The notes below the pieces were generated by a model. It was not told the DNA's origin. It did not search any database and saw only the letters and a program-made list of their open reading frames with translations. A DNA stretch of 41,618 bases, taken from NCBI GenBank assembly GCA_900318955.1, contig ONMJ01000018.1:1-41618 (forward strand), written 5' to 3'. This stretch comes from an uncultured Bacteroidales bacterium. Its GTDB lineage: Bacteria > Bacteroidota > Bacteroidia > Bacteroidales > UBA932. The position numbers and the translations under genes are program-made. The stretch's first letter is position 1. The number at the start of each line of letters is the position of its first letter. Positions 12,387 to 27,663 of this stretch are shown piece by piece.

Positions 12387-13571
12387 ATGATTGAGCAGAA
12401 TACAGAAAAAGCGGTCTTTGTCGGCGTCGTCCTTGAAAAGGGAGGGGAGAGAAAGACCATGGAATACCTCGATGAGCTGCAGTTTCTCGCCGAAACTGCC
12501 GGCGCTGTCGGGGATAAAAAGTTCATCCAGCGACTGGACCAGACATATAAGGCAACCTATATCGGTACAGGCAAGCTCGAAGAGATAAAGGCCTATTGTG
12601 AGGCACATGAAATCAAATATGTCATCTTTGATGACGAGCTTACCGGCACCCAGCAGCGAAATATAGAGAAGATCATCGGCTGCTGCAATATTATCGACAG
12701 AACGAGCCTGATACTCGAAATCTTCGCCCAAAGGGCAAAGACTTCATACGCAAAAATGCAGGTAGAGCTCGCCAGGCACCAATATATGCTCCCGAGGCTC
12801 GCCGGTATGTGGACCCATCTTGAGAGACAGAGGGGAGGCGTCGGAACCCGCGGAGGTATGGGCGAAACCCAGATCGAAGTCGACCGCCGAATTGTAAAGG
12901 AGAGAATCACCCGCCTTAAGGAGGAACTGAAAAAAGTTGACCGCCAGATGTCGACGCAAAGGGGCAATAGAGGCTCTATGGTGCGACTTTCCCTTGTAGG
13001 GTATACCAATGTAGGGAAGAGCACGCTTATGAACCTCCTGGCCAAATCTGACGTCTTTGCTGAGAACAAACTTTTCGCCACCCTCGATACAACCGTACGG
13101 AAAGTGGTCATAGAGAATGTCCCCTTCCTTCTCAGCGACACCGTAGGATTCATCCGAAAGCTTCCAACCCAGCTTATAGAAGCCTTCAAAAGTACCCTTG
13201 ACGAGGTCAGGGAGGCAGATATCCTTGTCCATGTAGTCGATATTTCCCACCCGGATTTTGAAGAGCAGATGACTGTCGTAGAGCAGACGCTTAAGGATAT
13301 AGGAGCCTTCAATAAGCCTGTTTATGTGGTCTTCAATAAGATCGACGCATACAAGAGCGAAGCCTATGACGAGTTCTCTCTCGAGCCTAAGGGCAAGGAG
13401 CACCGTACCCTCGAAGAACTGAAAAACAGCTGGATAGCAGAGGAAAAGACCCCTTGCATCTTCATTTCAGCAAAGAACAAGACCAACATAGAAAAACTCC
13501 GCAACGACATCTATAAGATGGTTGCGGAGATCCATGCGGGAAGATATCCCTTCAATAATTTCCTCTACTAG
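12387..13571 (+). CDS. hflX: GTPase HflX
   Basis: HflX is a ribosome-associated GTPase that splits stalled 70S ribosomes, notably under stress. It is 394 aa. The N-terminal HflX domain contains the glycine-rich RQRGGVGTRGGMGETQIE (about residues 149-166), followed by a coiled-coil segment. The G domain holds GYTNVGKST (G1, about 207), DTVGFIRKLP (G3) and FNKID (G4). Its TAG stop shares the palindrome CTAG (13568-13571) with the stop of the convergent phosphoesterase gene, so the two coding regions overlap by four bases with no terminator between them. Confidence 0.96.
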   Translation: MIEQNTEKAVFVGVVLEKGGERKTMEYLDELQFLAETAGAVGDKKFIQRLDQTYKATYIGTGKLEEIKAYCEAHEIKYVIFDDELTGTQQRNIEKIIGCCNIIDRTSLILEIFAQRAKTSYAKMQVELARHQYMLPRLAGMWTHLERQRGGVGTRGGMGETQIEVDRRIVKERITRLKEELKKVDRQMSTQRGNRGSMVRLSLVGYTNVGKSTLMNLLAKSDVFAENKLFATLDTTVRKVVIENVPFLLSDTVGFIRKLPTQLIEAFKSTLDEVREADILVHVVDISHPDFEEQMTVVEQTLKDIGAFNKPVYVVFNKIDAYKSEAYDEFSLEPKGKEHRTLEELKNSWIAEEKTPCIFISAKNKTNIEKLRNDIYKMVAEIHAGRYPFNNFLY

Positions 13572-15130
13572 AAGGTGATTCTCTGGGAAAGACCTTCTCC
13601 CGGTGTCGCTACAAACTCGGCAATAATGCCGGAAGGGCCGATATTCACAATATTGAATCCCGTATAACCTAGCTTCAGCGGACTTCCAACAGGGCCGGCG
13701 GTAATGAATTTAATACCTTCATACTCGCTGTAGTAATCCTGATGGGTATGGCCCGCATAGACGGCATCAACACCGTACTTCTTGAAAAGAGAAATATATT
13801 TGTATCTCTTGTCCATCGGGAAGTTGAAATAATCCTCCTTTTCGTAAATATTTTCGCGGATTACAGGGCAGTGGATAAAAATATTGAGGCTCTTGGCTCC
13901 AGCATATTTTGCGAGTTCGCCTTCCAGCCACTCAAGCTGCGCCGCCTCAACTTTTTTGGCCCCATCCTTAATGCAGTTGGTGTCAAATCCGACGAAAGCG
14001 TGGCCATCCTTTTCGATAGAGAAACGATCATACCCACGAAGGTCCATATAATGGGCGTGCTTATCCTCGGAATAACCTCTGATATCGTGGTTTCCGGGCA
14101 CTTCATAAACAGGGATAGAAGGATTGAAACGAGCCTTACCCTCAACATAGATCCTGTTCTGGAGTGTATCGTAGGCGTCATTAATAAGATCGCCGGTGAT
14201 AAAGGCCATCGCCGGGTGAATAGCATTCACTACATCCACGGCGGCATTCATTCTATCCCTCGAGAGCTGCCAGGAAGGGGTCTCATCTTTGAAGCCGATC
14301 TGCGTGTCCGTCATATGGACGAAAGTCAGAGATTCCTGCTTCGGAAGGACTTTGAATTTCACCATTACAGGGAAATGGTCAGACTCCCTTGCCACATTGA
14401 TGCCCTTCTCCTCATAAACTACCTTGGAGTCAAGAACCTTGACCTGACGGGCGGTCTTGAAGGAGAGCACGTAATCAATGCAAATATGCGGTTTCTCCGT
14501 CGAATGGGTAGGCTGATCCACAGAAAGCACATTCCAAAGCCTTCTGAGCTCGATAAGGGTCGAACTTGAAGGTGTGGAATTGAGGTCACCGCAGAGGATT
14601 ACAGGCTTGTCATAACCAGTATAATGAATAGCGAACCAGTCGTTGATTATCGCTGCCTGGGAGCGGCTGACGGCATCAGAGGTATGCTCAAGATGAGTAG
14701 CCGCGAATACCATATCCTCGGTTTCAACCACCGCAACACTTCGGATTTCAGAGCCCTCGAAACGAGGAAGTTCAATCCGGTAACGAGCAATAATCGGCTT
14801 GCTTGAAACAACCCCGTTGCCATAGGCTCCGCCTTTATAGTCAAGAGACTTTGAGAAGGAAAAATTCCATCCGCCAAGAGCCTCAGCGATGTCTTTGAGC
14901 TGATCTGTATTATGCCTTGTATTGCAACTGTCAAGCTCATTGAGGCCAACAAGTACGGGGTCCTCAGCCTTTATGACAGAGGCTATCCCCTCGGCGCTGC
15001 ACCCTTCGTACTTACTGAGAGAACCTATATTATAGGTCATTACAGTGAATGTCCCTTCAGAAGATTTCTTGCCTGCGCATGAGCAGACCAAAATAGCGAT
15101 GGCTAAAGCCGAGAATAACTTGGTTTTCAT
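13568..15130 (-). CDS. Lipoprotein with EEP phosphodiesterase and metallophosphoesterase domains
   Basis: This is a two-domain secreted phosphoesterase of 520 aa from the ATG at 15130; an upstream reading to 15196 only adds a non-signal leader. A lipoprotein signal peptide ends at LVCSC, so it is probably anchored to the outer membrane. Residues about 28-272 form an endonuclease/exonuclease/phosphatase (DNase I-fold) domain with MTYNIGS, VGLNELD, THLEH, GDLNSTP and ESDHFPV. Residues about 277-520 form a calcineurin-like metallophosphoesterase with MTDTQIG, ITGDLIND, PGNHDI, a HCPV histidine and GHTHQDYY. The first metal motif is D-x-Q rather than D-x-H, as in CPPED1-like enzymes. It is the last gene of the SusCD operon, 10 bp after the next EEP gene. 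The substrate is unknown. Confidence 0.88.
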   Translation of the reverse strand: MKTKLFSALAIAILVCSCAGKKSSEGTFTVMTYNIGSLSKYEGCSAEGIASVIKAEDPVLVGLNELDSCNTRHNTDQLKDIAEALGGWNFSFSKSLDYKGGAYGNGVVSSKPIIARYRIELPRFEGSEIRSVAVVETEDMVFAATHLEHTSDAVSRSQAAIINDWFAIHYTGYDKPVILCGDLNSTPSSSTLIELRRLWNVLSVDQPTHSTEKPHICIDYVLSFKTARQVKVLDSKVVYEEKGINVARESDHFPVMVKFKVLPKQESLTFVHMTDTQIGFKDETPSWQLSRDRMNAAVDVVNAIHPAMAFITGDLINDAYDTLQNRIYVEGKARFNPSIPVYEVPGNHDIRGYSEDKHAHYMDLRGYDRFSIEKDGHAFVGFDTNCIKDGAKKVEAAQLEWLEGELAKYAGAKSLNIFIHCPVIRENIYEKEDYFNFPMDKRYKYISLFKKYGVDAVYAGHTHQDYYSEYEGIKFITAGPVGSPLKLGYTGFNIVNIGPSGIIAEFVATPGEGLSQRITF

Positions 15131-15140
15131 ATATTTACAA

Positions 15141-16160
15141 TTATTTGTACTCCCATTTGAACAAGACCGGATAATGGTCGGAAATGAACGGAACACCGTA
15201 GTTGGTCTTGTCTACCCAATACTCTTTCGGAACAATACTCTTTCCTCCGAAAAAGATATGGTCAATCAGGCTGCCGCTATCTTGATTTTTAAATCCATTG
15301 AACGTCCCCGTGTACCTGTCTTTGGATTCGACAGAGAGGCGGGCATAATCCATATTATCCTTCAGGCTCTTTAACTGGGCGTTCTCATATGACGTATTGA
15401 GATCGCCAACATGGAAAATTATACAGTCGGCATTCTTGATATCGTCCACTTTGCAGATATTTTTGATCTGGGTAATCATCAGGTCCGCAGCATTCTTTCT
15501 CGCCGTCTCGCTCTTATGATCATAGTGGGTAGGGAAGAAATAAACTATGGAATTGTTGTGTTTCTTATCCTTCAGTTTAACATACACCGTAACTCTCCTG
15601 CAGGCAGAATTCCAAGCACCATAAGTCCCGTCAGAATTCTTGGCAGGAAGTGTTCTCGGGGTTTCATCAAGCCAGAAAAAGTCCTTCTGGACGACCTCGA
15701 AACGGTCTTTTTTGTACAAAAGTCCAACTCCTTCGCCACCGGCACTGGCAACAGAAGAACCGCTGCCGCTATCGCGACCTACATCATAATATCCGTATTC
15801 GGAACCGAAATTAGAGGTGAAATACTGGGATTGTTCCTTTCTGATTTCCTGAAGTCCTATAAGATCGGGATCAGTCGCCTCAACGAACTTTTTTACCGCC
15901 GGAGCCCTGACACTCCATGCCGCGCTGCTGCCATCAGGGAATTGATCCGCTGTGTTGGCATAGCGAAGATTGAATGTACATACCGTCATTGACACCTTCT
16001 CTCCGGAAGGCGTAGGATCAGGAGTCGGTGTTGGATCCGGATCCTCCGGCGTCACCGGTGTAACCGGAGTTACAGGATTGACGACATCTGCCGGCCTGCA
16101 GGCTGCAAAAAGCAGCACTGCAGGCAGGAAGATGCTTAAAATAGATTTGTTAATTTTCAT
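15141..16160 (-). CDS. EEP-family phosphoesterase lipoprotein
   Basis: The protein is 339 aa with a lipoprotein signal peptide (lipobox LFAAC) followed by a low-complexity Thr/Pro/Asp linker of about 25 residues (repeated VTP then TPDPTP), which would hold the enzyme away from the membrane. The catalytic domain has the EEP motifs in order: CTFNLRYAN, LIGLQEIRKEQ, THYDHKSETARKNA, VGDLNTS, LIDHIFFGG and ISDHYPV. The FNLRY...GLQE...SDHYP pattern resembles a group that includes phosphatases acting on sugar phosphates and lipid phosphodiesters as well as nucleases, so the substrate cannot be assigned. It starts 2 bp after the PKD/PQQ gene stop, firmly within the SusCD operon. Confidence 0.88.
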   Translation of the reverse strand: MKINKSILSIFLPAVLLFAACRPADVVNPVTPVTPVTPEDPDPTPTPDPTPSGEKVSMTVCTFNLRYANTADQFPDGSSAAWSVRAPAVKKFVEATDPDLIGLQEIRKEQSQYFTSNFGSEYGYYDVGRDSGSGSSVASAGGEGVGLLYKKDRFEVVQKDFFWLDETPRTLPAKNSDGTYGAWNSACRRVTVYVKLKDKKHNNSIVYFFPTHYDHKSETARKNAADLMITQIKNICKVDDIKNADCIIFHVGDLNTSYENAQLKSLKDNMDYARLSVESKDRYTGTFNGFKNQDSGSLIDHIFFGGKSIVPKEYWVDKTNYGVPFISDHYPVLFKWEYK

Positions 16161-16162
16161 TA

Positions 16163-18094
16163 TTACTCTGCTTTACAAGTCTTGCGAGGGTTACCTCCGA
16201 GCTGCGACCATCCTGCCGCAGGACCGGTTGCCGAACCCTTTACCGCGAAGAGTGTCACCTTGCCTTCCTTCATTCCGGTACAGTAGATGGTGCCGTCCGG
16301 AGCAATGGTCGGAGAAGAACGAAGAGACTCTCCGAGAGTAATTTCAGACGCCTTCGTTCCATCGCTCTTAAGTTTGATAAGCTTTCCGGTGGCCAGTTCA
16401 CCATCGGACTCGTTATAGTAGATGTAGCCCTGATTATCCACGGCCGGACTACCCCATACATAGCTGGTTTCAGCGCCAGTTGGGGTGAACCATTTCCTGG
16501 TGCCGCCCGGATCTACTGCGGTGATACCGTTGCGTGTTGATACATAGATAGTTCCGTCCTCGCCCAACACGACGCCGAGACCGTAGTAACGGTTATTGGT
16601 ACCATCGATACCCAATGTCCATTCCGGTCCAATTCCCGCACTCTTATTGTACTTGTTGAGGTCGTAGCAGTATAGGACAGCCTTCTCCGACACGATGCCG
16701 GTATTAGTCCCATAGAGTATATAGACCCTGTTATTCTTATCGATGGCCATGTAGCTTGAGGCTCCGTTTTCTCCGGTATTTTTAGTCGAGCTATATCCAA
16801 GCGCGAATACGTCTCTATTGTCGGCTTTGCCATAATATTTCCAAGAGCCATTTTCTTTCCATAGGACCCTGGAGCCATAAGCATCGTTACAATGCGTCAC
16901 GATGGTTTCTTCGGCGGTTGCTGCCTGTCCACCATAGGAACCCTGCTTGATTTGCATCATCTGAGCAAAAGAACCGTCGGACTTATTGAGGAAGAAACCG
17001 TTGTCAAGATTACTGATTGCCCAAAGTTCCGGATAATTTGCAGATTCGGGATTGTATTTGGTTGTCAGGAATATCTTATCTTCGAGAATCATCGGGACTA
17101 CATTGATGAAACGGGCGTTTCCATATGCAAAATACCATTTCTGACTACCGTCCGGATTGACGGCGAATACGCCGGATTCATTGATACCAACTGTGGCTTT
17201 GTAGTCCTTCTCGTTGTAAGCTACGGCAAAATAAATCGTACCGTCCGCATCTACCGAAGGTGTGCAGGAACTGCCTGTCTTGGAACCGTCGTTGCTGAGC
17301 TGATTAGGATTGTGGATATTGCCGTCAAAACTCCATTTCTGATTACCTTCGGCGTCGAAAGCGGCGAGATGGAGACCGCTGGAGAAGGCGTAGACCATGC
17401 TGCCATCAGCATTGGTAGCCGGGGAAGCGAACTTAACGAACGCGTCGTTGTCAGAATCGAACGGCTTCGCCCATGCAATCTCAAGAGAGTTGGGGCTCTT
17501 GTCTACATGGATGGTCTTGATAGCTGAAGCCTTCTTTTTCTGGTTGTCCGTAACAGTGAGGACCACCTCAATCTCTCCGAACTCGTTAAAAATGAAGGTG
17601 GGGTTCTGTTCAGTGACGACATTGGAGCCGAACTTCCACTCCCAAGCGACAATCTGACCGTCCGGGTCGGAGGAAAGATCCTTAAACTGAACTTCGTCTC
17701 CTGCTGCAATTCCGGTTTCGGGGGTCCATGTAAAGTCCACGACAGCCTGTTCATTGGTATCTTGAACAGTGATTTTCTTTGTCACTGTTCCGCTGACATT
17801 AGAGTTGGTGACAGCCGTAAGAGTAATCTCTTTTTCTCCTACTGTGTCGAAGGAAATAGGCTCTTCGAGTTGTTTTCCCCATTTGTATCCTGTCCCCCAG
17901 TCCCACTTGCAGGCGATAATGATATCGTTCGTAGCGGTGGAGGTGTTCTTTATAATTACATCCTCATAAAGCTCATACACGTCCTTATTGGTCGTGAAAT
18001 CAGCATTGACCGATATCTCCGGCTTGACGCAGGAAGATATTGCGGCAATCGATAGCGAAATGAGAATTATCTTATGGATTCTTTTCATAATCAT
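16163..18094 (-). CDS. PKD-domain and PQQ-like beta-propeller lipoprotein in SusE/F position
   Basis: A 643-aa surface lipoprotein (signal peptide ending AAISSC). Residues about 25-110 and 115-200 are PKD-type Ig-like domains; the second contains FKDLSSDPDGQIVAWEWKFG and ends IKTIHVDKS. The rest is a PQQ-like beta-propeller with repeated blades such as LAAFDAEGNQKWSF, VFAVNPDGSQKWYF and ITAVDPGGTRKW. It has no catalytic motif. It occupies the place downstream of susD usually held by SusE/SusF surface-binding lipoproteins, so a substrate-capture role is inferred. A second start codon two residues downstream (18088) is equally possible. It is flanked by 2-bp gaps on both sides. Confidence 0.85.
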   Translation of the reverse strand: MIMKRIHKIILISLSIAAISSCVKPEISVNADFTTNKDVYELYEDVIIKNTSTATNDIIIACKWDWGTGYKWGKQLEEPISFDTVGEKEITLTAVTNSNVSGTVTKKITVQDTNEQAVVDFTWTPETGIAAGDEVQFKDLSSDPDGQIVAWEWKFGSNVVTEQNPTFIFNEFGEIEVVLTVTDNQKKKASAIKTIHVDKSPNSLEIAWAKPFDSDNDAFVKFASPATNADGSMVYAFSSGLHLAAFDAEGNQKWSFDGNIHNPNQLSNDGSKTGSSCTPSVDADGTIYFAVAYNEKDYKATVGINESGVFAVNPDGSQKWYFAYGNARFINVVPMILEDKIFLTTKYNPESANYPELWAISNLDNGFFLNKSDGSFAQMMQIKQGSYGGQAATAEETIVTHCNDAYGSRVLWKENGSWKYYGKADNRDVFALGYSSTKNTGENGASSYMAIDKNNRVYILYGTNTGIVSEKAVLYCYDLNKYNKSAGIGPEWTLGIDGTNNRYYGLGVVLGEDGTIYVSTRNGITAVDPGGTRKWFTPTGAETSYVWGSPAVDNQGYIYYNESDGELATGKLIKLKSDGTKASEITLGESLRSSPTIAPDGTIYCTGMKEGKVTLFAVKGSATGPAAGWSQLGGNPRKTCKAE

Positions 18095-18096
18095 TG

Positions 18097-19929
18097 CTAT
18101 TTAGTAATCCAACCGGGGTTCTGCTTGAGGTTATCATTTTTGAGGATGACTGACTCAGGAACCGGATATATATACATATTATCATTCCACTTGCGAGGCA
18201 TTACATATCCGAGCTTATATCCCTTTGCCGGGTCGTCAGCAAGAGCCTCCACAACCTGGTGATCATTGAGAGTCATTGTAATCGCCTTGTATGTTCCGTT
18301 CTTCTGATAGTTGGCATCGGCGGTTACATACACATCATAAGTTCCGTCTCCATTGAGGTCGAGAGGAGTGTCAAGGGCGGGAATATATATTCCATCCCAA
18401 GGTGCATTCTGCCAGTTACTTCCACAAGCCCAGCGCTTGAGGTCATTCAAACGGAAACCTTCGAGAATAAGCTCGATTGCACGGTCGCGGCGAATCTCAA
18501 GAATGATAGGATCTGTAACATTGGGATAGAATGTCTGCTGGAGATATGTATCCACTACTGTAGGAAGCTTATCAAGATCACCTCCGGTAATACCGGCGCG
18601 GCGGCGCAGGGCGCCTATAGTTTTGGTCCAGTCATCTACGGTAATTGTACCCAATTCCGCCTTTGCCTCCGCATAGTTGAGAAGAACCTCGGCATAACGG
18701 AGGATAGGAGTATCGTTGTCATTGGAGCGGGCTCCATCATAGCCGATATCATCCATTACATGCTTTGTGTACTGATAGCCTGTAAGTGAAAGACTCATAT
18801 CAGGAGCTGTCTTTACATATACCTTGGATGCGTCCAGACGGGTATAGTCTGCTCCACGGATAGTCTGGCACATACGGGGATCACGGCCCGTAGTCTCCTG
18901 GGCGAAAGTCTTATATGATCCGGAGGCCGTCTTCTCGTTGTAGATTGTACCGTCTGCATTGAGATAGGTCTTGGCAAAAGCACGGGTCATTGAAGTATGA
19001 GGACCGTATGATGTTGAATTGTAATACCAGTTGGCCTCGCCGAGATTAGAAAGTTCCTTACTCAGGGCAACAGCCAGCATAACTTCTTCGCTGACAGGAT
19101 TGTCGCTGGTGAAAAGATCGCGATAAGCTCCGCGGCCTCCGGCTGTATAAGGAGTGCCGGTATGGAGTTTATAAGGGCCCTCGTCCATAATCTTCTTAGC
19201 TGCATCAGCCGCCTGTTGGAGAAGGTCATTCGCAGAGATAGTGCACCCTTCGAGATATTCTTTTCCAAATTCGCTACCATTTGCATGATACTTACGGAAG
19301 GTCCCTTCAAAGAGGCAGATACGACTCTTGAGGGCAAGGGCAGTCCACTTATTGACAGTATTTGCTCCTGGAGTGAAGCCAGTCGCAGTGATATGCTCGG
19401 CCGCAAAATCAAGATCCTCTATAATATGGGTGATAATCACATCCCTTGAATCCTGCCCTTTATAGAGTTCCTCATCTTTAGGGTCAAGAGGCTTATCAAT
19501 CCATGGAACTGCTCCATAAGTGACAAGTTTGTCATAATACAGATATGCACGGAATAAGCGGGCGATACCTGTATAATTGTTCCTTATCTCCTCAGAAAGG
19601 TTGGGATCCGTATTATACTTGATAAAGTAATTGACATTACGGATACTCCCCCAGCTCCATGAAGTTGATGTGTTAGTAGTATAAGCTCCCTGCTCATACA
19701 CGCCGATACTCATCTTTGCTGAGTAATCGTGCGTTGTATTGATTTTAAAAGCATTATCATAGTTGGGGAGATAATTATAGAAACCATAGCAATAATTTCT
19801 AAGTCCCGCCTCGTCTCCGAATATAATTGCTCGTCCAGCCTCTGCTTGCGGTGCTTCCGTGAGGTCGCAGGATGATGCCATGAGGCCCAGCGCGATAAGC
19901 GAAGAAAGAATGTAGATATATTTTTTCAT
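18097..19929 (-). CDS. SusD/RagB family nutrient-binding outer-membrane lipoprotein
   Basis: SusD proteins form the lid over a SusC transporter and bind the substrate. It is 610 aa, with a lipoprotein signal ending LMASSC. The N-terminal helical TPR-like part includes DEAGLRNYCYGFYNYLP and YFIKYNTDPNLSEE. The C-terminal RagB/SusD part has ILRYAEVLLNYAEAKAELG and IILEIRRDRAIELILEGFRLNDLKRW (shown here only as family landmarks near residues 410-500), which is diagnostic for the family. It lies 12 bp after the susC stop, preceded by a strong Shine-Dalgarno sequence. The cognate transporter is the SusC-OmpA protein. Confidence 0.96.
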   Translation of the reverse strand: MKKYIYILSSLIALGLMASSCDLTEAPQAEAGRAIIFGDEAGLRNYCYGFYNYLPNYDNAFKINTTHDYSAKMSIGVYEQGAYTTNTSTSWSWGSIRNVNYFIKYNTDPNLSEEIRNNYTGIARLFRAYLYYDKLVTYGAVPWIDKPLDPKDEELYKGQDSRDVIITHIIEDLDFAAEHITATGFTPGANTVNKWTALALKSRICLFEGTFRKYHANGSEFGKEYLEGCTISANDLLQQAADAAKKIMDEGPYKLHTGTPYTAGGRGAYRDLFTSDNPVSEEVMLAVALSKELSNLGEANWYYNSTSYGPHTSMTRAFAKTYLNADGTIYNEKTASGSYKTFAQETTGRDPRMCQTIRGADYTRLDASKVYVKTAPDMSLSLTGYQYTKHVMDDIGYDGARSNDNDTPILRYAEVLLNYAEAKAELGTITVDDWTKTIGALRRRAGITGGDLDKLPTVVDTYLQQTFYPNVTDPIILEIRRDRAIELILEGFRLNDLKRWACGSNWQNAPWDGIYIPALDTPLDLNGDGTYDVYVTADANYQKNGTYKAITMTLNDHQVVEALADDPAKGYKLGYVMPRKWNDNMYIYPVPESVILKNDNLKQNPGWITK

Positions 19930-19936
19930 TGCTGTT

Positions 19937-19943
19937 CCTCCTT
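19937..19943 (-). promoter_or_regulatory. Strong Shine-Dalgarno sequence of susD
   Basis: AAGGAGG on the minus strand lies 7 nt upstream of the susD ATG and overlaps the susC stop codon. Such a perfect anti-16S match is uncommon in Bacteroidota, where initiation seldom relies on it. It may secure high SusD output or re-initiation after SusC. Confidence 0.6.
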
Positions 19944-22900
19944 ATAATTTTTCAATGATTACACACCTGTCAAGTTCGGAATCTCTGTCGAAGCCGAGTC
20001 CGGTATTGACAGTAAATCGGTCTGGATCTACTCCAAGTTCTTTCATGTAGGCAATTACATTATCAACCCTCTGCTGTGAAAGTTCTGCATTGCGTGCAAC
20101 TGTTCCGGTTCCGGCATCAGCATTTCCGCGGATTGAGAACTTGACAGAAGGATCTTCAGCGTTGATCCTACGTACTATATCCCTTACATGAACCTTCTCA
20201 AGGTCAGTAAGTTCACTGTTGTTGAGTTCGAAGAAGACTGGATAGAAAGCATTTTCCCTTTCTACCTTTACCAGCTTCTCATACTTCTCTTCAGCTGCTT
20301 TTGCGTCAGCCTCGGCCTTTTCGGCTTTCGCCATGAGAGCTGCTATCGCGGCTGCATCATAAGCGGGTTTCGCTGCCTTTCTGACTGCATCTCCAAAATG
20401 ACCGAATGTCATCTTGAGACCTATGCTGAGACTCTTCATTGTAGGGAAGTTGTATCCGTCACCGGTAGTGCTCAGAACACTGTCAGTACCGTAGATATTG
20501 GCGGTAACATCAATGTCGCGGGTATGCCTGTAGACAGGAGACCATGTCCAAAGATTCTCTCCTGCAAGGAAGATGGAAACCTTCTGCATTCCAGCCTTCC
20601 TGGTGAGCTTCTCGGGAAGGGTATACCCGAACTGAACACTCTTCAGACGGATATATGAAGCATCCTGGAGATAGAGAGTATTGGCATTGACACGTCCTTT
20701 ATAGAAAGGTGCGAAGTAACCGGTATACCTCGGGAGATAAGCGTTGGGATTATCTTCTGTCCAATAGTTGTTTAGGTGCCATGAAGGCATCTGGTTGTAA
20801 GGACGGTTATACATGCCCCAGAATGTGGAAGACTCATTATCAGGGAACCAATCCTGCTTTCCAACACCCTGGAAGAATGCATTTGCATAAAATCCGTTCC
20901 ATCCAAGATCAATTCCGAAAGAATAAATATAACGGGGTTCCGAATTACCTATAATCTTGCGGTCTCCGGAATCATCAGCGGTATTCTTGCCACGGTCGAT
21001 ATATCCGTTATTATTGAGATCCTCGAATTTAATATCACCGGGATAGAGGGTATAGGACTCTGTCTGCTGCATTCTGGGATTAAAATGAGCCTGACCGACC
21101 TCTTTAGCCCTTGCTTCATCTGCGTCAATCTCTGCCTGGCTCTGATAAAGCCCGTTAGCAACATATCCCCAGATTTCACCAAGCCTCATTCCTTCATAGT
21201 AGCTTGTATTATAAGCATTATCGCCGAGGGATTTGAGAGCATTGTTGTACTTGTCAATAATTGAATAATAATCAGCAAGAGTAGCGCGAAGTCCGTATGT
21301 GAAGGGCTTTCCTCCGAGATTGAAAGCATCCTCCCAGCTGAGTGAGAGTTCGAATCCGCGGGTTGTCATTTCAGCGTAGTTGCCCTTCGGAGAAGAAGCT
21401 CCAAATACATCCGGGAGGGTTGGTCCTACCGTGTACATGTTGAGAGTCTTACGACTGTAAATATCACCCGTAAAGTTGAGTCTTCCGGAGAAGAAGCTGA
21501 GGTCGACTCCACCGTCGAGAGTCTGGGCCGTTTCCCATGTCAAAGACTCAGGAATCGGGCTTGGAGCGCTTGTATAACGGACTTTCTGGCCATTGATGAT
21601 TCTTCCGTTGTCAAAATCAAAAGTCTCATCGTATGCATATACCCCAACATTACTGTTTCCGAGGGAACCATAAGATCCGCGAATCTTAATGTTGGATATC
21701 CACCTCTTGTCTACATTGAACCAAGGTTCTTCGCTCAATCGCCAACCTGCGGAAATAGAAGGGAAGAATGCCCATCTCTGACGTGCAGGGAACTTTGAAG
21801 ATCCGTCATAACGGCCGTTCACTTCAAAAAGATATCTTTCGGCATAGTTATAATTGAAACGGAAGAATGCACCGGCTGTACGCCACTTGCTGTAGTCACC
21901 TGTAATACTCTTGTTGTCAAGACCGAGAGCAAGGTTGATGTTATCCACATTAGGACTGAGAAGGCCGTCGTTGTAAGCATAGGTATTCTTATATACCTGC
22001 TGCTCATAGTTGTAACCAACAAGAGCCTTGAAATTATGCTTGCCCCAGCTGTCTTCGTACTCAACAAACTCATTGGTAGAGAGATAGTCATATGTACGAA
22101 GGGTTTCACTGATGTAATCGGCAAGACCCTTTATGTCCGCAAGCGATTCGATAACTCCCTCATAGCGGGAGAAAGGACTCGGAAGACGGTGAACATGGGT
22201 ATCATAAGTTCTTACCCTGTATGTGAAATCAGCATTGAGACGAAGGCGGTTGTCAAATAATGTAGCCTTTGCACCAACTGTATTCTGTGCCTGACGGTTG
22301 GTGTAAGTACGGTTACTTCCTCCGTAAAGAATATCACCAACAGAGTAAACACCTGAATATGACAGAGTCCCGTCCGGGTTGATAATAGGTGAGCAAGGAT
22401 GGCCTTCATCAGCTATATTACGCCAAATATTACCGCCTCCTTCGCTTTGAGTCTCCGGCATCACATACTTACTGTATGAAATATCAGTATTGGAATAAAT
22501 TCTAAACCAAGGAGTTACCTGATATCCTGCCTTTACACGGCCGTTATACATCTTGTATGAATCCGGATTGACTGTACTGTCGAAAAGTCCGTCATTGTCA
22601 TAGATACGAGCCGATACATAGTAATCAAACTTGTCGTCCGCTCCGGAAATAGAGATGTTGTGAGTCTGGGTAAATGTAAAGTCCTTATAGAGAGCATCGT
22701 AGTAATCTGTTCCCTTATGAAAATAGAGCCAGCGTCCCTTGTCAATCAAGGATCCATCTGAAACAAGGGTCTCGAAATTCCCACTCTCCGCTCTTTGACG
22801 ATACTCTTCGAGCCAGGCAGTTGTAAACTGCATGGTTTTGTTGATCTGAGTAGGATTACTTCCCTTATAGTTGTACCAGCTTCTGTAGAAATGTTCAGCC

Positions 22901-23694
22901 CATGTATAACCATCAGAAACTACATCCGGTATAGCGGTAGGAGTTTCAAACGAGAAATTGGCCTGATAGTTTACTGTTGCCGTACCCTTCTTCGCATTCT
23001 TTGTCGTAATAAGGACGACTCCGTAAGGAGCGCGGGATCCGTAGATTGCTGAAGAGGCTGCATCCTTGAGAACAGATACACTTTCAATATCGTTAGGGTT
23101 AAGAAGGCCTGCATTTCCTTCTACTCCGTCGATAAGGACAAGAGCATTACCGCCCTGTCCGATAGAGGTGCGTCCGCGAATGTTGAAAGAAGGTGATGAA
23201 TTAGGACGACCGTCGGTGAATTTAAGGTTAAGGTTTGCTACGCGGCCCTGAAGCATCTGGGCAAGGTTGGCGTTCGGACGGCCTTCAAAGGTCTCTTCAC
23301 CAACCTGGTCGACTGCACCTGTAAGGTTCGCTTTCTTTTGCGTACCATAACCTACTACGACAATCTCGTTAAGCATTTCCTGATCGGAAGAGAGTGTAGC
23401 ATCTATTCTTGCACGACCTCTGACAGGAATTCTTTCTGTCTTGAAACCGATGCTTTGAATAGTCAATGTAGCATTGGAAGGAACTGTAATAGTATAACGT
23501 CCGTCCATATCGGTCGCTGTACCAAGAGTTGTTCCTTCCACCATTACTCCTGCACCTATAACCGGCATTCCCTGATCATCAAGGACCCTGCCGGATACGG
23601 TAACTCTACCGGCACCTTGTCCGCCACCCTGTCCGAAAGCAGGAGTGACCAGCAGAATGAGTGCCAGCAGCAATAGATTAATTTTAGATTTCAT
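19942..23694 (-). CDS. SusC/RagA-type TonB-dependent transporter with C-terminal OmpA-like domain
   Basis: Outer-membrane TonB-dependent importer, 1250 aa from the ATG at 23694 (a longer reading to 23775 lies in promoter sequence). A signal peptide ends TPAFGQ, then a Gly-rich stretch, a carboxypeptidase-regulatory-like domain (VSGRVLDDQGMPVIGAGV), the SusC signature EIVVVGYGTQKKANLTGA, and a plug domain with NIRGRTSIG and DAASSAIYGSRAPYGVVLITT. The barrel appears to end at SIGLKMTF near residue 1098. About 150 further residues follow: an Ala/Glu/Lys-rich helix likely to be a coiled coil, then an OmpA-like peptidoglycan-binding domain (about 1148-1250) with FFELNNSELT, IRGNADAGTG, ELSQQRVDNVIAYMKELGV and a terminal LDRCVIIEKL. 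The Asp and Arg expected to bind diaminopimelate are present. Most SusC proteins end at the barrel. Confidence 0.95.
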   Translation of the reverse strand: MKSKINLLLLALILLVTPAFGQGGGQGAGRVTVSGRVLDDQGMPVIGAGVMVEGTTLGTATDMDGRYTITVPSNATLTIQSIGFKTERIPVRGRARIDATLSSDQEMLNEIVVVGYGTQKKANLTGAVDQVGEETFEGRPNANLAQMLQGRVANLNLKFTDGRPNSSPSFNIRGRTSIGQGGNALVLIDGVEGNAGLLNPNDIESVSVLKDAASSAIYGSRAPYGVVLITTKNAKKGTATVNYQANFSFETPTAIPDVVSDGYTWAEHFYRSWYNYKGSNPTQINKTMQFTTAWLEEYRQRAESGNFETLVSDGSLIDKGRWLYFHKGTDYYDALYKDFTFTQTHNISISGADDKFDYYVSARIYDNDGLFDSTVNPDSYKMYNGRVKAGYQVTPWFRIYSNTDISYSKYVMPETQSEGGGNIWRNIADEGHPCSPIINPDGTLSYSGVYSVGDILYGGSNRTYTNRQAQNTVGAKATLFDNRLRLNADFTYRVRTYDTHVHRLPSPFSRYEGVIESLADIKGLADYISETLRTYDYLSTNEFVEYEDSWGKHNFKALVGYNYEQQVYKNTYAYNDGLLSPNVDNINLALGLDNKSITGDYSKWRTAGAFFRFNYNYAERYLFEVNGRYDGSSKFPARQRWAFFPSISAGWRLSEEPWFNVDKRWISNIKIRGSYGSLGNSNVGVYAYDETFDFDNGRIINGQKVRYTSAPSPIPESLTWETAQTLDGGVDLSFFSGRLNFTGDIYSRKTLNMYTVGPTLPDVFGASSPKGNYAEMTTRGFELSLSWEDAFNLGGKPFTYGLRATLADYYSIIDKYNNALKSLGDNAYNTSYYEGMRLGEIWGYVANGLYQSQAEIDADEARAKEVGQAHFNPRMQQTESYTLYPGDIKFEDLNNNGYIDRGKNTADDSGDRKIIGNSEPRYIYSFGIDLGWNGFYANAFFQGVGKQDWFPDNESSTFWGMYNRPYNQMPSWHLNNYWTEDNPNAYLPRYTGYFAPFYKGRVNANTLYLQDASYIRLKSVQFGYTLPEKLTRKAGMQKVSIFLAGENLWTWSPVYRHTRDIDVTANIYGTDSVLSTTGDGYNFPTMKSLSIGLKMTFGHFGDAVRKAAKPAYDAAAIAALMAKAEKAEADAKAAEEKYEKLVKVERENAFYPVFFELNNSELTDLEKVHVRDIVRRINAEDPSVKFSIRGNADAGTGTVARNAELSQQRVDNVIAYMKELGVDPDRFTVNTGLGFDRDSELDRCVIIEKL

Positions 23695-23733
23695 AAATGA
23701 TGGTTTATGATGATAATTAGTGTTATCTAAGTG

Positions 23734-23741
23734 CAAATTTA
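23734..23741 (-). promoter_or_regulatory. susC operon promoter -7 element
   Basis: TAAATTTG on the minus strand fits TAnnTTTG and predicts a transcript start near 23727 with a leader of about 33 nt before the susC ATG. The -33 region is very AT-rich without a clear TTTG. No ECF sigma/anti-sigma pair or hybrid two-component regulator is adjacent. Confidence 0.5.
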
Positions 23742-23773
23742 GTAATTTTATATAAATATTAATATTTATATAC

Positions 23774-23806
23774 AAAAAAAGCGACTATAAAACATAGCCG
23801 CTTTTT
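23774..23806 (-). terminator. Intrinsic terminator after frdB
   Basis: On the minus strand GCGGCTAT-gtttt-ATAGTCGC (23781-23801) pairs over 8 bp including one G-U pair, and is flanked by A-run and T-run on both sides (TTTTTTT after it). It separates the frd unit from the susC operon. The plus-strand version has an A-C mismatch, so the terminator is directional. Confidence 0.8.
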
Positions 23807-23825
23807 AAATATTTTTTTTAAAATT

Positions 23826-24569
23826 CTATAGTGAGAACTTTGCGTTGATGTACTCTCTGTTGAGACGTGCTATATGGTCAATAGTCACATGTTTAGGACA
23901 TTCCATCTCGCAGGCGCGGGTATTCGTGCAGTTTCCAAACCCGAGTTCATCCATCTTTGCAACCATCGCACGGGCACGGCGTGCAGCCTCAGGACGTCCC
24001 TGAGGAAGGAGAGCAAGAGAAGATACCCTGGCAGCTACGAATAGCATTGCAGAGCCATTCTTGCATGTTGCAACGCAAGCACCGCAACCTACGCAAGCTG
24101 CCGCATCCATACTCTCTTCAGCCTTGTCGTGAGGAATGAGAATATTATTGGCATCCTGGGCACTTCCGGCACGTACAGAGATGAATCCTCCCGCCTGAAG
24201 AATCTTATCGAAAGCAGTACGGTCAACTACAAGATCCTTGATTACAGGGAACGCTGAAGACCTCCAAGGCTCTACCGTAATAGTAGCACCCGGTTTGAAG
24301 TGACGCATGAAAAGCTGGCAGGTGGTTACCTGATCATCCGGACCATGAGCGCGGCCGTCCACATATAGAGAGCAGGCTCCGCATATACCCTCGCGGCAGT
24401 CATGATCGAAAGCCACAGGCTCTTTACCCTGACGGATAAGCTGGTCATTGAGTATATCGAGCATCTCGAGGAAAGAAGCGTCTTCCTCCACATCTGTAAC
24501 ATGATAAGTCTCGAAATGACCTTTTGTCTTGGCGTTTTTCTGACGCCACACTTTTATATTGTATTCCAT
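23826..24569 (-). CDS. frdB: Fumarate reductase/succinate dehydrogenase iron-sulfur subunit
   Basis: Electron-transfer subunit of a quinol:fumarate reductase or succinate dehydrogenase at the inner membrane. It is 247 aa. The N-terminal ferredoxin domain holds [15 protein letters not shown] for the [2Fe-2S] cluster. The C-terminal domain has [16 protein letters not shown] and [13 protein letters not shown] for the [4Fe-4S] and [3Fe-4S] clusters. The sequence resembles the FrdB of anaerobic Bacteroides that reduce fumarate during fermentation. It starts 6 bp after frdA. No cytochrome b (frdC) gene is adjacent. Confidence 0.96.
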
Positions 24570-24575
24570 ATCCGA

Positions 24576-26525
24576 TTAGTCTTTGTAGTTTCTTGTGGCA
24601 ATCTTGATATTCTCATACTTGAGAGGCTCTTTATGAAGTTCCGGCTCAACACCTTCACCCTTATACTCCCAAGCGGCTACATACATGAAGTTCTCGTCGT
24701 CACGAAGGGTCTCTCCTTCTGGAGTCTGCATTTCCTCGCGGAAATGTCCTCCGCAGGACTCTCTTCTGTTGAGAGCATCACGGGCCATAAGTTCTCCAAT
24801 ATCGAAGAAGTCAATAAGACGGAGAGCTTTCTCAAGTTCCTGGTTGAACTCTTCGTTGGTACCGGGAACACGTACAGTCTTCCAGAATTCCTGACGGAGT
24901 TTTCCGATTTCTTCGATTCCTTTCTTAAGACCTTCTTCAGTACGGGCCATTCCTACATACTCCCACATTATATGGCCGAGTTTCTTGTGAATAGAGTCTA
25001 CAGTCTCTGTACCATTTACTGCAAATACCTTTGCAATGCGCTCACGTACAGCTTTTTCCGCTTCAGCAAACTCAGGTGCATTGATATCTGTCTTAGGCTC
25101 CGCAAATTTGTGGGAAAGGTAATCTCCGATAGTATAAGGGAGGATGAAATAACCGTCTGCAAGACCCTGCATGAGGGCTGAAGCACCGAGGCGGTTGCCG
25201 CCATGATCGGAGAAGTTGCACTCTCCGATAGCATACAGACCTGGAATTGTAGTCTGAAGATCATAATCTACCCAAAGTCCACCCATCGTATAGTGGATAG
25301 CAGGATAAATCATCATAGGCTCTTCCCAAGGAGAAGTTGTGGTGATCTTCTCATACATATCAAACAGGTTGCCGTAACGCTCTGCCACCCTCTGATGTCC
25401 GAGACGCTTGATAGCATCTGCAAAATCAAGGAATACGGCAAGACCGGTTTCATTTACTCCATAACCTGCATCGCATCTTTCCTTGGCTGCACGTGAAGCA
25501 ACGTCGCGGGGAACAAGATTTCCGAAGGCAGGATAACGGCGCTCGAGATAATAATCGCGATCCTCTTCAGGGATCTGAGAAGGCTTAATCTCGTGCTTGC
25601 GAAGTTTCATCACATCTTCCATCTTCTTCGGAACCCAGATACGGCCGTCATTACGAAGAGACTCCGACATAAGGGTCAGTTTGCACTGCTGGTCACCATG
25701 AACAGGGATACAGGTAGGGTGAATCTGTGCAAAGCAGGGATTTGCGAAGAAAGCTCCCTTCTTATAGCACTGCCATGCCGCAGATCCGTTGGAATTCATT
25801 GCGTTGGTAGAAAGGAAATAAGTATTTCCATAACCTCCCGTTGCAAGTACAACAGCATGAGCACCGAATCTCTCTATTTCACCGGTAATAAGGTTGCGCG
25901 CAATTATACCCTTTGCCTGACCATTGATAATTACAAGATCAAGCATCTCATGTCGCGGGTAACTCTTGACAGTTCCAGCAGCTATTTCTTTGTTAAGAGA
26001 AGCATATGCTCCAAGAAGAAGCTGTTGGCCGGTTTGTCCGCGGGCATAGAATGTACGGCTCACCTGAACACCTCCGAAAGAGCGGTTGGCAAGGTATCCG
26101 CCATATTCGCGTGCAAAAGGAACTCCCTGCGCAACGCACTGATCTATAATAGCGGCACTTACTTCAGCAAGACGGTAGACATTCGCCTCGCGGCTGCGAT
26201 AGTCACCTCCTTTGATGGTGTCATAGAACAGGCGATAGATGGAGTCGTTGTCGTTCTGGTAATTCTTTGCAGCATTGATACCTCCCTGAGCCGCAATAGA
26301 GTGAGCACGGCGGGGAGAATCGCTGATACAGAATATCTTGACATTGTATCCGAGCTCTCCGAGAGAAGCAGCTGCGGATGCTCCGCCAAGACCGGTACCT
26401 ACTACAATAACCTCAAGTTTGCGCTTGTTATTGGGACTGACAATTCTAATTTCGGATTTGCGCTTTGTCCATTTTGAAGCTAGCGGACCATCCGGAATCT
26501 TCGAGATTAATTTATTATCGGCCAT
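24576..26525 (-). CDS. frdA: Fumarate reductase/succinate dehydrogenase flavoprotein subunit
   Basis: Catalytic flavoprotein that interconverts fumarate and succinate. It is 649 aa, the length typical of the Bacteroidota type. The FAD-binding [19 protein letters not shown] is near residue 40, [15 protein letters not shown] carries the flavin-linking histidine, and [17 protein letters not shown] and [15 protein letters not shown] belong to the active-site region. The C-terminal [18 protein letters not shown] is also conserved. It is followed by frdB. Upstream is an unrelated hydrolase gene, 43 bp away, where the membrane anchor frdC would usually be found. Confidence 0.96.
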
Positions 26526-26568: not shown

Positions 26569-27663
26569 TTAATTAATTTTCGGGGATTTCCCAAATATAT
26601 CATCACAGAACCTGCTATATAGTCGGAAAAATCTTCTATTTCTCATCTTCCCGCTTGTCCATCTGGAATAAATATCATTAAAATCATAATCTATTTCCGC
26701 TTCTTCCGGCAGACCTTCCTCACGAGATGAAATACCTCTTATTTCCTTTTCCTTAAGGGCTCCGTCGCATAAAAGTGAATGATCAGATACTTTCGATTTT
26801 TTCATATAAGAAGGCACCCTGTCCTTATCCAATACCATTACCGGAATATACGGAACGCAAGTCGGATATCCGAGACATGTCCACATTACCGTATGGAGAG
26901 GATTACCTCCGTCAGCAACTCCTTCAATCACAATACTGGCAGATGTTATATTCCTCAGTATAGGCTTCCCGGAACGGGAAATACTGTTTATAAGTCCTCT
27001 GTGGTTATAATCAGAAGGTGAAAGCCCTTTCATTATAGCTGAGGCTTTTTCAAACCTTTCCACTCCTTTTCTATCCTGGACCCTTCCTGTCCTTGAAAAA
27101 TTCGTAACTACCATATATCCTTCATCTATGGTATTTACATCAAATTTTACCCACTTATAATTATTAACCTCATAGTAAGCAGCCCCGCCATGAGCATCTA
27201 TTATCCCAAAATTAGCCTCAACTCCCATAGGTCTTGAGAGAGTATCCAGAAACATTTCAAAATCAGCAAGATTGGAACATATTTCAAGGGCCCTGTACAT
27301 TAGTTCACCCTCTCTATCCATCATTTCTGTTGGAACATCATCGTCTTTTAAATCGTAAGTTGCAGTGTTCATAATGCTGAATCCTGCACTGTTGCTTCCG
27401 GTCCATGCCTCACCTGCCGCATACGGATATGATGCCTGTCTTTCTTTTTCCCAACTTGCGTTTACAAGGGCTACAAAATTGTATATCTCACCCTCAAACC
27501 ACTGAATCCTGTTGTTTAATTCACCTGTATCGCGATGTTTCATCATTACAGGTCTTCCGTCCGGCGTAGACTTACCGGAAATAATAACTGAGGTGCAAGC
27601 TGCAGCTTTGGTTGAAAAAGACAACAAAAGCACAGCTATAAACAAATATCCTGCTTTATTCAT
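26569..27663 (-). CDS. Secreted Ntn-hydrolase (linear amide C-N hydrolase / acyltransferase-like)
   Basis: A 364-aa exported protein. The signal peptide ends TKAAA and the next residue is Cys23 (ACTSVIISG). In the choloylglycine/penicillin-acylase-like Ntn-hydrolases this cysteine becomes the N-terminal nucleophile after processing. Other family-like features are MMKHRDTGELNNRIQW, the GSNSAGFSIMNTATYDL strand and GVEANFGIIDAHGGAAYYEV. The substrate is unknown; relatives cleave amides such as bile-salt conjugates, acyl-amino acids or beta-lactam precursors. It starts 17 bp after the ruvB stop, so it may be read from the ruvB promoter. An alternative view is that it is a secreted dipeptidase-like protein of family C69. 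Confidence 0.8.
   Translation of the reverse strand: MNKAGYLFIAVLLLSFSTKAAACTSVIISGKSTPDGRPVMMKHRDTGELNNRIQWFEGEIYNFVALVNASWEKERQASYPYAAGEAWTGSNSAGFSIMNTATYDLKDDDVPTEMMDREGELMYRALEICSNLADFEMFLDTLSRPMGVEANFGIIDAHGGAAYYEVNNYKWVKFDVNTIDEGYMVVTNFSRTGRVQDRKGVERFEKASAIMKGLSPSDYNHRGLINSISRSGKPILRNITSASIVIEGVADGGNPLHTVMWTCLGYPTCVPYIPVMVLDKDRVPSYMKKSKVSDHSLLCDGALKEKEIRGISSREEGLPEEAEIDYDFNDIYSRWTSGKMRNRRFFRLYSRFCDDIFGKSPKIN

Follow-up and report, generated by a model that had tools for sequence, protein, structure and literature searches.

A conserved SusCD-propeller-EEP module in an uncultured Bacteroidales bacterium: a candidate system for the use of a phosphorylated glycan

The five-gene operon and its products

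The analysed DNA, hereafter the window, comprises 41,618 nucleotides of contig ONMJ01000018.1 (assembly GCA_900318955.1) from an uncultured Bacteroidales bacterium of the lineage UBA932. Five genes on the minus strand, spanning 23694-13568 and separated in order by 12, 2, 2 and 10 bp, encode a SusCD pair, a lipoprotein with a PKD and a propeller domain, and two lipoproteins with a domain of the endonuclease/exonuclease/phosphatase (EEP) superfamily, the second of which also carries a metallophosphoesterase domain (EEP-MPE). A sequence-only reading had described this tight packing and these gene families; gene coordinates and profile matches confirm the two.

19942..23694, minus strand: SusC/RagA-type TonB-dependent transporter with OmpA domain, 1250 amino acids (aa); TIGR04056, PF00691
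18097..19929, minus strand: SusD/RagB-type lipoprotein, 610 aa; PF07980 (8.5e-39), lipobox-like motif
16163..18094, minus strand: lipoprotein with PKD and PQQ-like beta-propeller domains, 643 aa; PKD PF18911 (3.5e-10)
15141..16160, minus strand: EEP lipoprotein, 339 aa; PF03372 (5.1e-15)
13568..15130, minus strand: EEP-MPE lipoprotein, fusion of EEP and calcineurin-like metallophosphoesterase, 520 aa; PF03372 (2.6e-15) and PF00149 (1.8e-11)

With a SusC-type transporter (TIGR04056, 836.5 bits, with plug and barrel matches) and a SusD-type lipoprotein 12 bp apart, the locus is a SusCD system. It is not a polysaccharide utilisation locus (PUL) in the strict sense of SusCD and carbohydrate-active enzymes (CAZymes) in one operon, as it holds no CAZyme. 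The Pfam/NCBIfam scan of the five proteins detected no glycosidase, lyase, sulfatase or peptidase family, in agreement with the sequence-only reading. The last four proteins have lipobox-like motifs, by a simple pattern. The N-terminus of SusD (Cys-Asp-Leu-Thr-Glu) is acidic and fits a surface lipoprotein. That of the EEP-MPE (Cys-Ala-Gly-Lys-Lys-Ser) has none of the acidic residues of Bacteroidetes export signals, as far as these motifs are given in excerpts of PMC5080379, thus the fusion protein probably faces the periplasm. The N-termini of the EEP (Cys-Arg-Pro-Ala-Asp-Val) and the propeller protein (Cys-Val-Lys-Pro-Glu-Ile) are ambiguous.

The SusC has a C-terminal OmpA-like domain of about residues 1130-1250, preceded by an Ala/Lys/Glu-rich linker (PF00691, 5.9e-07 at residues 1154-1231). 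TonB-dependent barrels have periplasmic C-terminal ends, so peptidoglycan binding by this domain is possible, and the transporter may be tied to the peptidoglycan from the periplasmic side. The extension was also present in four (L161, L162, L167, L170) of the 19 close orthologous operons, defined by a propeller identity of 53 % or more; the SusC of L166 is truncated. All 162 plasmid records in a tblastn search with the SusC were below 60 % identity. Two further SusCs of the same genome carry the extension. One (L131:2561-10171, contig C24) adjoins a SusD and a metallophosphoesterase with MetallophosN/C domains. The other (L132:891-9881, contig C49) is followed by a lipoprotein-like gene in the SusD place, which matches SusD, and has a 1127-aa beta-helix/DUF4957 protein downstream.

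In the single-domain EEP, the presumed catalytic set N64, E105, H212, D253, N255, D300, D328 and H329 is complete; the metal-binding and catalytic roles of these residues are our assumption from the superfamily. The eight positions were identical in 56 aligned EEP domains of the module described below, the sole exception being a row truncated where its contig ends (55 of 56 complete), in a set gathered by profile search, which favours canonical members. By these invariant residues the module EEPs look like active enzymes. A role as degenerate binding domains was considered and dropped on the same ground. The nearest characterised match in a sequence search was the mannosyl-6-phosphatase BT3783 (structure 4c1r, 7.6e-19), and no nuclease structure was found below E 0.01 in that search. 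We read the match as kinship and not as activity. 4c1r clusters with a different EEP of the genome rather than with the window's subgroup; the structural alignment has 29 % identity. Nuclease matches of the window EEP were sub-threshold; another EEP subgroup matches AP-endonuclease. The predicted model of the single EEP was poor (mean confidence score pLDDT 57.9), and the structure matches do not decide the substrate.

In the EEP-MPE, the first domain has the motifs corresponding to the presumed EEP catalytic residues. Its second domain scores 45.3 bits against PF00149 (cut-off 21.5) and shows D-x-Q in place of D-x-H in motif I in all eight aligned members, with the remaining motifs present; as the calcineurin-like set we take D-x-H, GD, GNHD, H and GHxH. 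The predicted model reached a mean pLDDT of 74.9, and the structure comparison barely covered the second domain. Across 149 genomes of the family, only the window's own gave the whole fusion (E <= 1e-40); in others the two halves matched separately, e.g., in 13 loci. No metallophosphoesterase of this type was among the genes picked in 37 mapped loci by a codon-score picker, which misses some genes.

A conserved module with a variable slot

The PKD/propeller protein served as the marker for related loci. It was present in 45 of 400 genus genomes at E <= 1e-50, the window's own included, and in 18 of 150 genomes of good quality. A family-wide search (199 genomes, E <= 1e-30) found it in two genomes only, the window's own and one congener. 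Besides the window's, 51 propeller places were obtained, 44 of them inside the 40 loci that were read (L091, L128, L130, L161-L197) and seven outside (G208, G427, G333, G251, G499, G296). SusC, SusD and EEP genes lay near the propeller gene on the same strand in 40 of the 40 loci (37 of 37 by script and the remaining three by eye). The gene order takes three forms: SusC-SusD-propeller-EEP in the window operon and its close orthologs; SusC-SusD-EEP-propeller, e.g., in L177, L180 and L194-L196; and, in 14 of the 40 loci (L181-L193, L197), an EEP-propeller fusion with a length of roughly 850 or 1100 aa. The fusions are good evidence that EEP and propeller work together. By sequence, SusC-SusD-propeller-EEP is a conserved module of the genus. 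The window's own propeller match is weak and sub-threshold, while one homolog matches PQQ_2; a surface ligand-binding subunit is the probable role of this lipoprotein.

The position behind the EEP varies. This slot, occupied in the window by the EEP-MPE, was relisted in the 19 close orthologs without a codon score, since the codon-score picker had missed some genes. It holds a glycoside hydrolase of family GH3 in two (L161, L167), GH31 in two (L163, L172), a GDSL esterase in two (L130, L165) and probably a third (L168:4601-6031, called GDSL-like from its place and an N-terminus resembling that in L130), and, in L169, a protein of 385 aa that matches no Pfam family. Nine of the 19 have no gene of 200 aa or more within 250 bp, and in two the contig ends there. 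The EEP-MPE was found in none, so conservation of the five-gene set, which the sequence-only reading had proposed to check, is not supported. Nor is "phosphoesterases instead of glycosidases" supported as a property of the system, given the GH3 or GH31 gene directly behind the EEP in four of 19 (propeller 56-68 % identical). That reading had named glycosidases in orthologous operons, lost here, as evidence against it. Their presence in four operons refutes it only in part, because nine have no gene of that size there and a loss of the glycosidase here is not distinguishable from a gain there.

The composition of the window operon by itself would suit phosphate scavenging, as described for the PusCD systems of Flavobacterium. 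In such a system SusCD would import organic phosphorus (nucleic acids, lipid head groups), EEP and EEP-MPE would free the phosphate, and phosphate limitation would control the genes. According to the available parts of PMC8115612, the SusCD pair of PusCD loci is accompanied by phosphodiesterases and phosphomonoesterases instead of CAZymes. In a survey, excerpts of which give the counts, 576 of 14,713 susC/D loci without CAZymes, sulfatases and peptidases carry PF00149 or PF01663 (Nat Commun 2019, PMC6499787), and nucleic acids are suggested there as targets of some loci. The lack of a glycosidase in the window operon, the nuclease-like EEP matches mentioned above and the second SusC-OmpA/SusD/metallophosphoesterase locus of the genome point the same way. 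However, the GH3 and GH31 genes of the orthologs, the glycosidases of the sister loci and the FecR-type regulators of some relatives (both below) speak against it, and we regard phosphate scavenging as unlikely. The variable slot makes a phosphorylated glycan the likeliest target rather than nucleic acid or lipid.

The GDSL esterases bear on a lipid target. The EEP could act like a sphingomyelinase or phospholipase C on the head groups of glycosylated phospholipids, with glycosidases and GDSL esterases trimming the glycan and acyl parts. Sphingomyelinases belong to the EEP fold, and the sister locus L121 contains a weak, sub-threshold ceramidase match (27.9 bits, cut-off 32.1). However, the best characterised sequence match of the EEP is a sugar phosphatase, and GDSL families are also known to deacetylate glycans. 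A lipid head-group system therefore appears improbable, the least credible of the explanations considered.

Sister loci, genomic abundance and surroundings

EEP genes also accompany SusCD outside the closest orthologs, and there with a wide range of enzymes. GH92 occurs in L051, a locus of the window's own genome, and in L180; GH39 and GH2 occur in L182 and L184. EEP and a GH27 alpha-galactosidase are joined on one chain in L181:2236-4572 and L186:3-1976, the latter gene being cut at the locus edge. Other phosphoesterases recur as well: a PF01663 phosphodiesterase in L184, a metallophosphoesterase in L131, and in L124:3796-6909 an EEP with a His_Phos_2/phosphodiester glycosidase protein in a SusCD locus whose SusD matches that of the window at 2e-211. 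L117:8420-17994 contains SusCD and several EEPs, with two EEP domains in one gene, followed by Gfo/Idh oxidoreductases and a 3-keto-disaccharide hydrolase. The joint presence of glycosidases and phosphoesterases in sister loci points to glycans bearing phosphate esters. In two genera, loci with SusCD and a pair of EEPs that flank a large lipoprotein were observed (L051:4326-15275 on contig C40 of the window's genome, and L100:4903-13836); the large lipoprotein of L051 has a GLUG motif and GH92 lies downstream, L100 lacks GH92.

The genome of 2.40 Mb (98.9 % complete) has 22 PF03372 and 23 SusD matches. Other genera of the family (55 genomes) have a median of 4 EEPs, with a range of 1-9. For the genus (121 genomes) the median is 6, with 10 or more EEPs in 29 genomes and 15 or more in 13, in a search that scored part of the candidates in the richest genomes; a fuller count for one relative gave 30. 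The idea that the window's genome alone is rich in EEPs (22, against 1-9 in other genera and 3, 4 and 11 in three congeners) was dropped, as the whole genus is rich. EEP genes cluster with SusD: in nine genus genomes at least 42 of 148 EEP matches lay within 6 kb of a SusD on the same strand, where uniform placement predicts 7.1, in a count that excluded the eight lowest of the relatives' 134 EEP matches and used 150 of their 197 SusD matches. The eight relatives were a non-random choice: seven were taken because they have many EEPs, and G183 because it carries an orthologous operon. In the window's genome, seven of 22 EEPs have a SusD at that distance, and two of the seven belong to the window.

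Such numbers, up to 30 EEPs in a genome, and the very different glycosidases beside them also suit an ordinary glycan-uptake locus, with the EEP as a general accessory for occasional phosphates, or with some unsuspected chemistry, and a glycan that is not characteristically phosphorylated. Yet the constant enzyme of the module is the EEP and not a glycosidase, it is fused to the propeller in over a third of the loci read, and sister loci repeatedly carry a phosphodiester glycosidase or other phosphoesterases. We consider this explanation quite unlikely, somewhat less so than a lipid target.

The sequence-only reading had taken the absence of a linked regulator as a sign of control by a global signal such as phosphate. 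This argument is weak. No FecR anti-sigma gene was seen adjoining the window operon, but of six genes scanned upstream of SusC in relatives three were of this kind (in the close orthologs L091 and L176, and in the more distant L179). A FecR gene directly upstream of SusC points to the substrate sensing typical of PULs.

The operon is flanked by housekeeping-like genes. The GTPase gene on one side is presumably hflX.

12387-13571, plus strand: GTPase gene
23776..23806, minus strand: terminator-like hairpin separating SusC from the upstream genes, a stem of 14 pairs with a T run behind it, a consensus match only
24576-26525: succinate dehydrogenase/fumarate reductase flavoprotein gene

Terminator-like sites as a class were not more frequent than in shuffled sequence. 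A 364-aa protein encoded at 26569-27663, beside RuvB, had no Pfam match. Rfam and tRNA scans of the window gave no matches, and no tandem repeats were found in a scan of 13000-24000.

Proposed function and comparison with known systems

The locus is real, conserved and unusual. We favour, with modest confidence, the explanation that the operon works like a PUL for a phosphorylated glycan; "works like" is chosen over "is" because the operon lacks a CAZyme. The propeller protein would hold the substrate at the cell surface beside SusD, and the EEP, a relative of BT3783, would remove or cleave phosphate ester links of the glycan. SusCD would import the product. The EEP-MPE, probably periplasmic and with two phosphoesterase domains on one chain, would finish the phosphate removal, and the dephosphorylated glycan would be degraded by glycosidases encoded elsewhere in the genome, in some relatives directly behind the EEP. 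This explanation draws on the conservation of the module, the EEP-propeller fusions, the invariant EEP residues and the match to 4c1r without nuclease structures. It further draws on the orthologs with GH3 or GH31, the EEP-GH27 fusions, the sister loci with GH92, GH2 or GH39, the phosphodiester glycosidase of L124 and the EEP-GH92 gene group of Bacteroides thetaiotaomicron. The phosphoesterase basis claimed by the sequence-only reading is supported: the EEP is constant, its presumed catalytic residues are intact and sister loci add phosphoesterases. Of the targets it listed, nucleic acids and lipids are less likely than a glycan.

A bolder version, which we put forward only tentatively and with considerable doubt, sees in the module a dedicated phosphoglycan machine. 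The surface EEP on its propeller partner, with which it often shares a single chain, would cut phosphodiester links as the depolymerising step, e.g., of a teichoic-acid-like, phosphomannan-like or capsular glycan. A whole family of these loci would have arisen in the genus, and in this genome one would have become coupled to an EEP-MPE and a peptidoglycan-anchored SusC.

PUL annotation can easily miss such loci, since the only enzyme they all share lies outside the CAZymes. Should the phosphoglycan explanation be true, a group of little-known Bacteroidetes would rely on phosphate removal at the front line of glycan foraging, and the conserved EEP-propeller pair would offer a direct way to find out which phosphorylated glycan they eat. 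The SusC-OmpA fusion of the window operon and four orthologs suggests that such a transporter can be anchored to the cell wall.

Earlier publications describe SusCD loci with phosphoesterases. No description of the SusCD-propeller-EEP module or of the EEP-propeller, EEP-GH27 and EEP-MPE fusions was found in the open-access literature with queries that were not worded for fusions, which is weak evidence of absence. The BT3783 locus presumably belongs to the yeast alpha-mannan PULs of B. thetaiotaomicron. Mannan PULs carry alpha-mannanases and alpha-mannosidases. They resemble the window operon in an EEP of the same superfamily (BT3783, 4c1r), and an excerpt of PMC10434189 lists a B. thetaiotaomicron gene group of EEP with GH92, GH125, SusC and SusD; sugar phosphatases are named for yeast mannan breakdown in part of PMC5798181. 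The window operon differs in the absence of a glycosidase, an EEP of another subgroup, the PKD/propeller protein and the EEP-MPE fusion.

The CAZyme-less susC/D loci of the survey (PMC6499787) share phosphoesterases in the absence of CAZymes, sulfatases and peptidases. In the available excerpts only PF00149 and PF01663 were counted, and neither PF03372 nor a propeller is named. The PusCD systems also combine a SusCD pair with phosphodiesterases or phosphomonoesterases and no CAZymes; the families of the window's EEP and EEP-MPE fit this composition, the four orthologs with GH3 or GH31 would not. PusCD systems are defined by induction upon phosphate depletion, and PUSI uses enzymes of PF00149 and PF16670, according to the accessible parts of PMC8115612. 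The window module, by contrast, is built around an EEP as its core enzyme and a PKD/propeller protein as partner, joined by glycosidases in some relatives.

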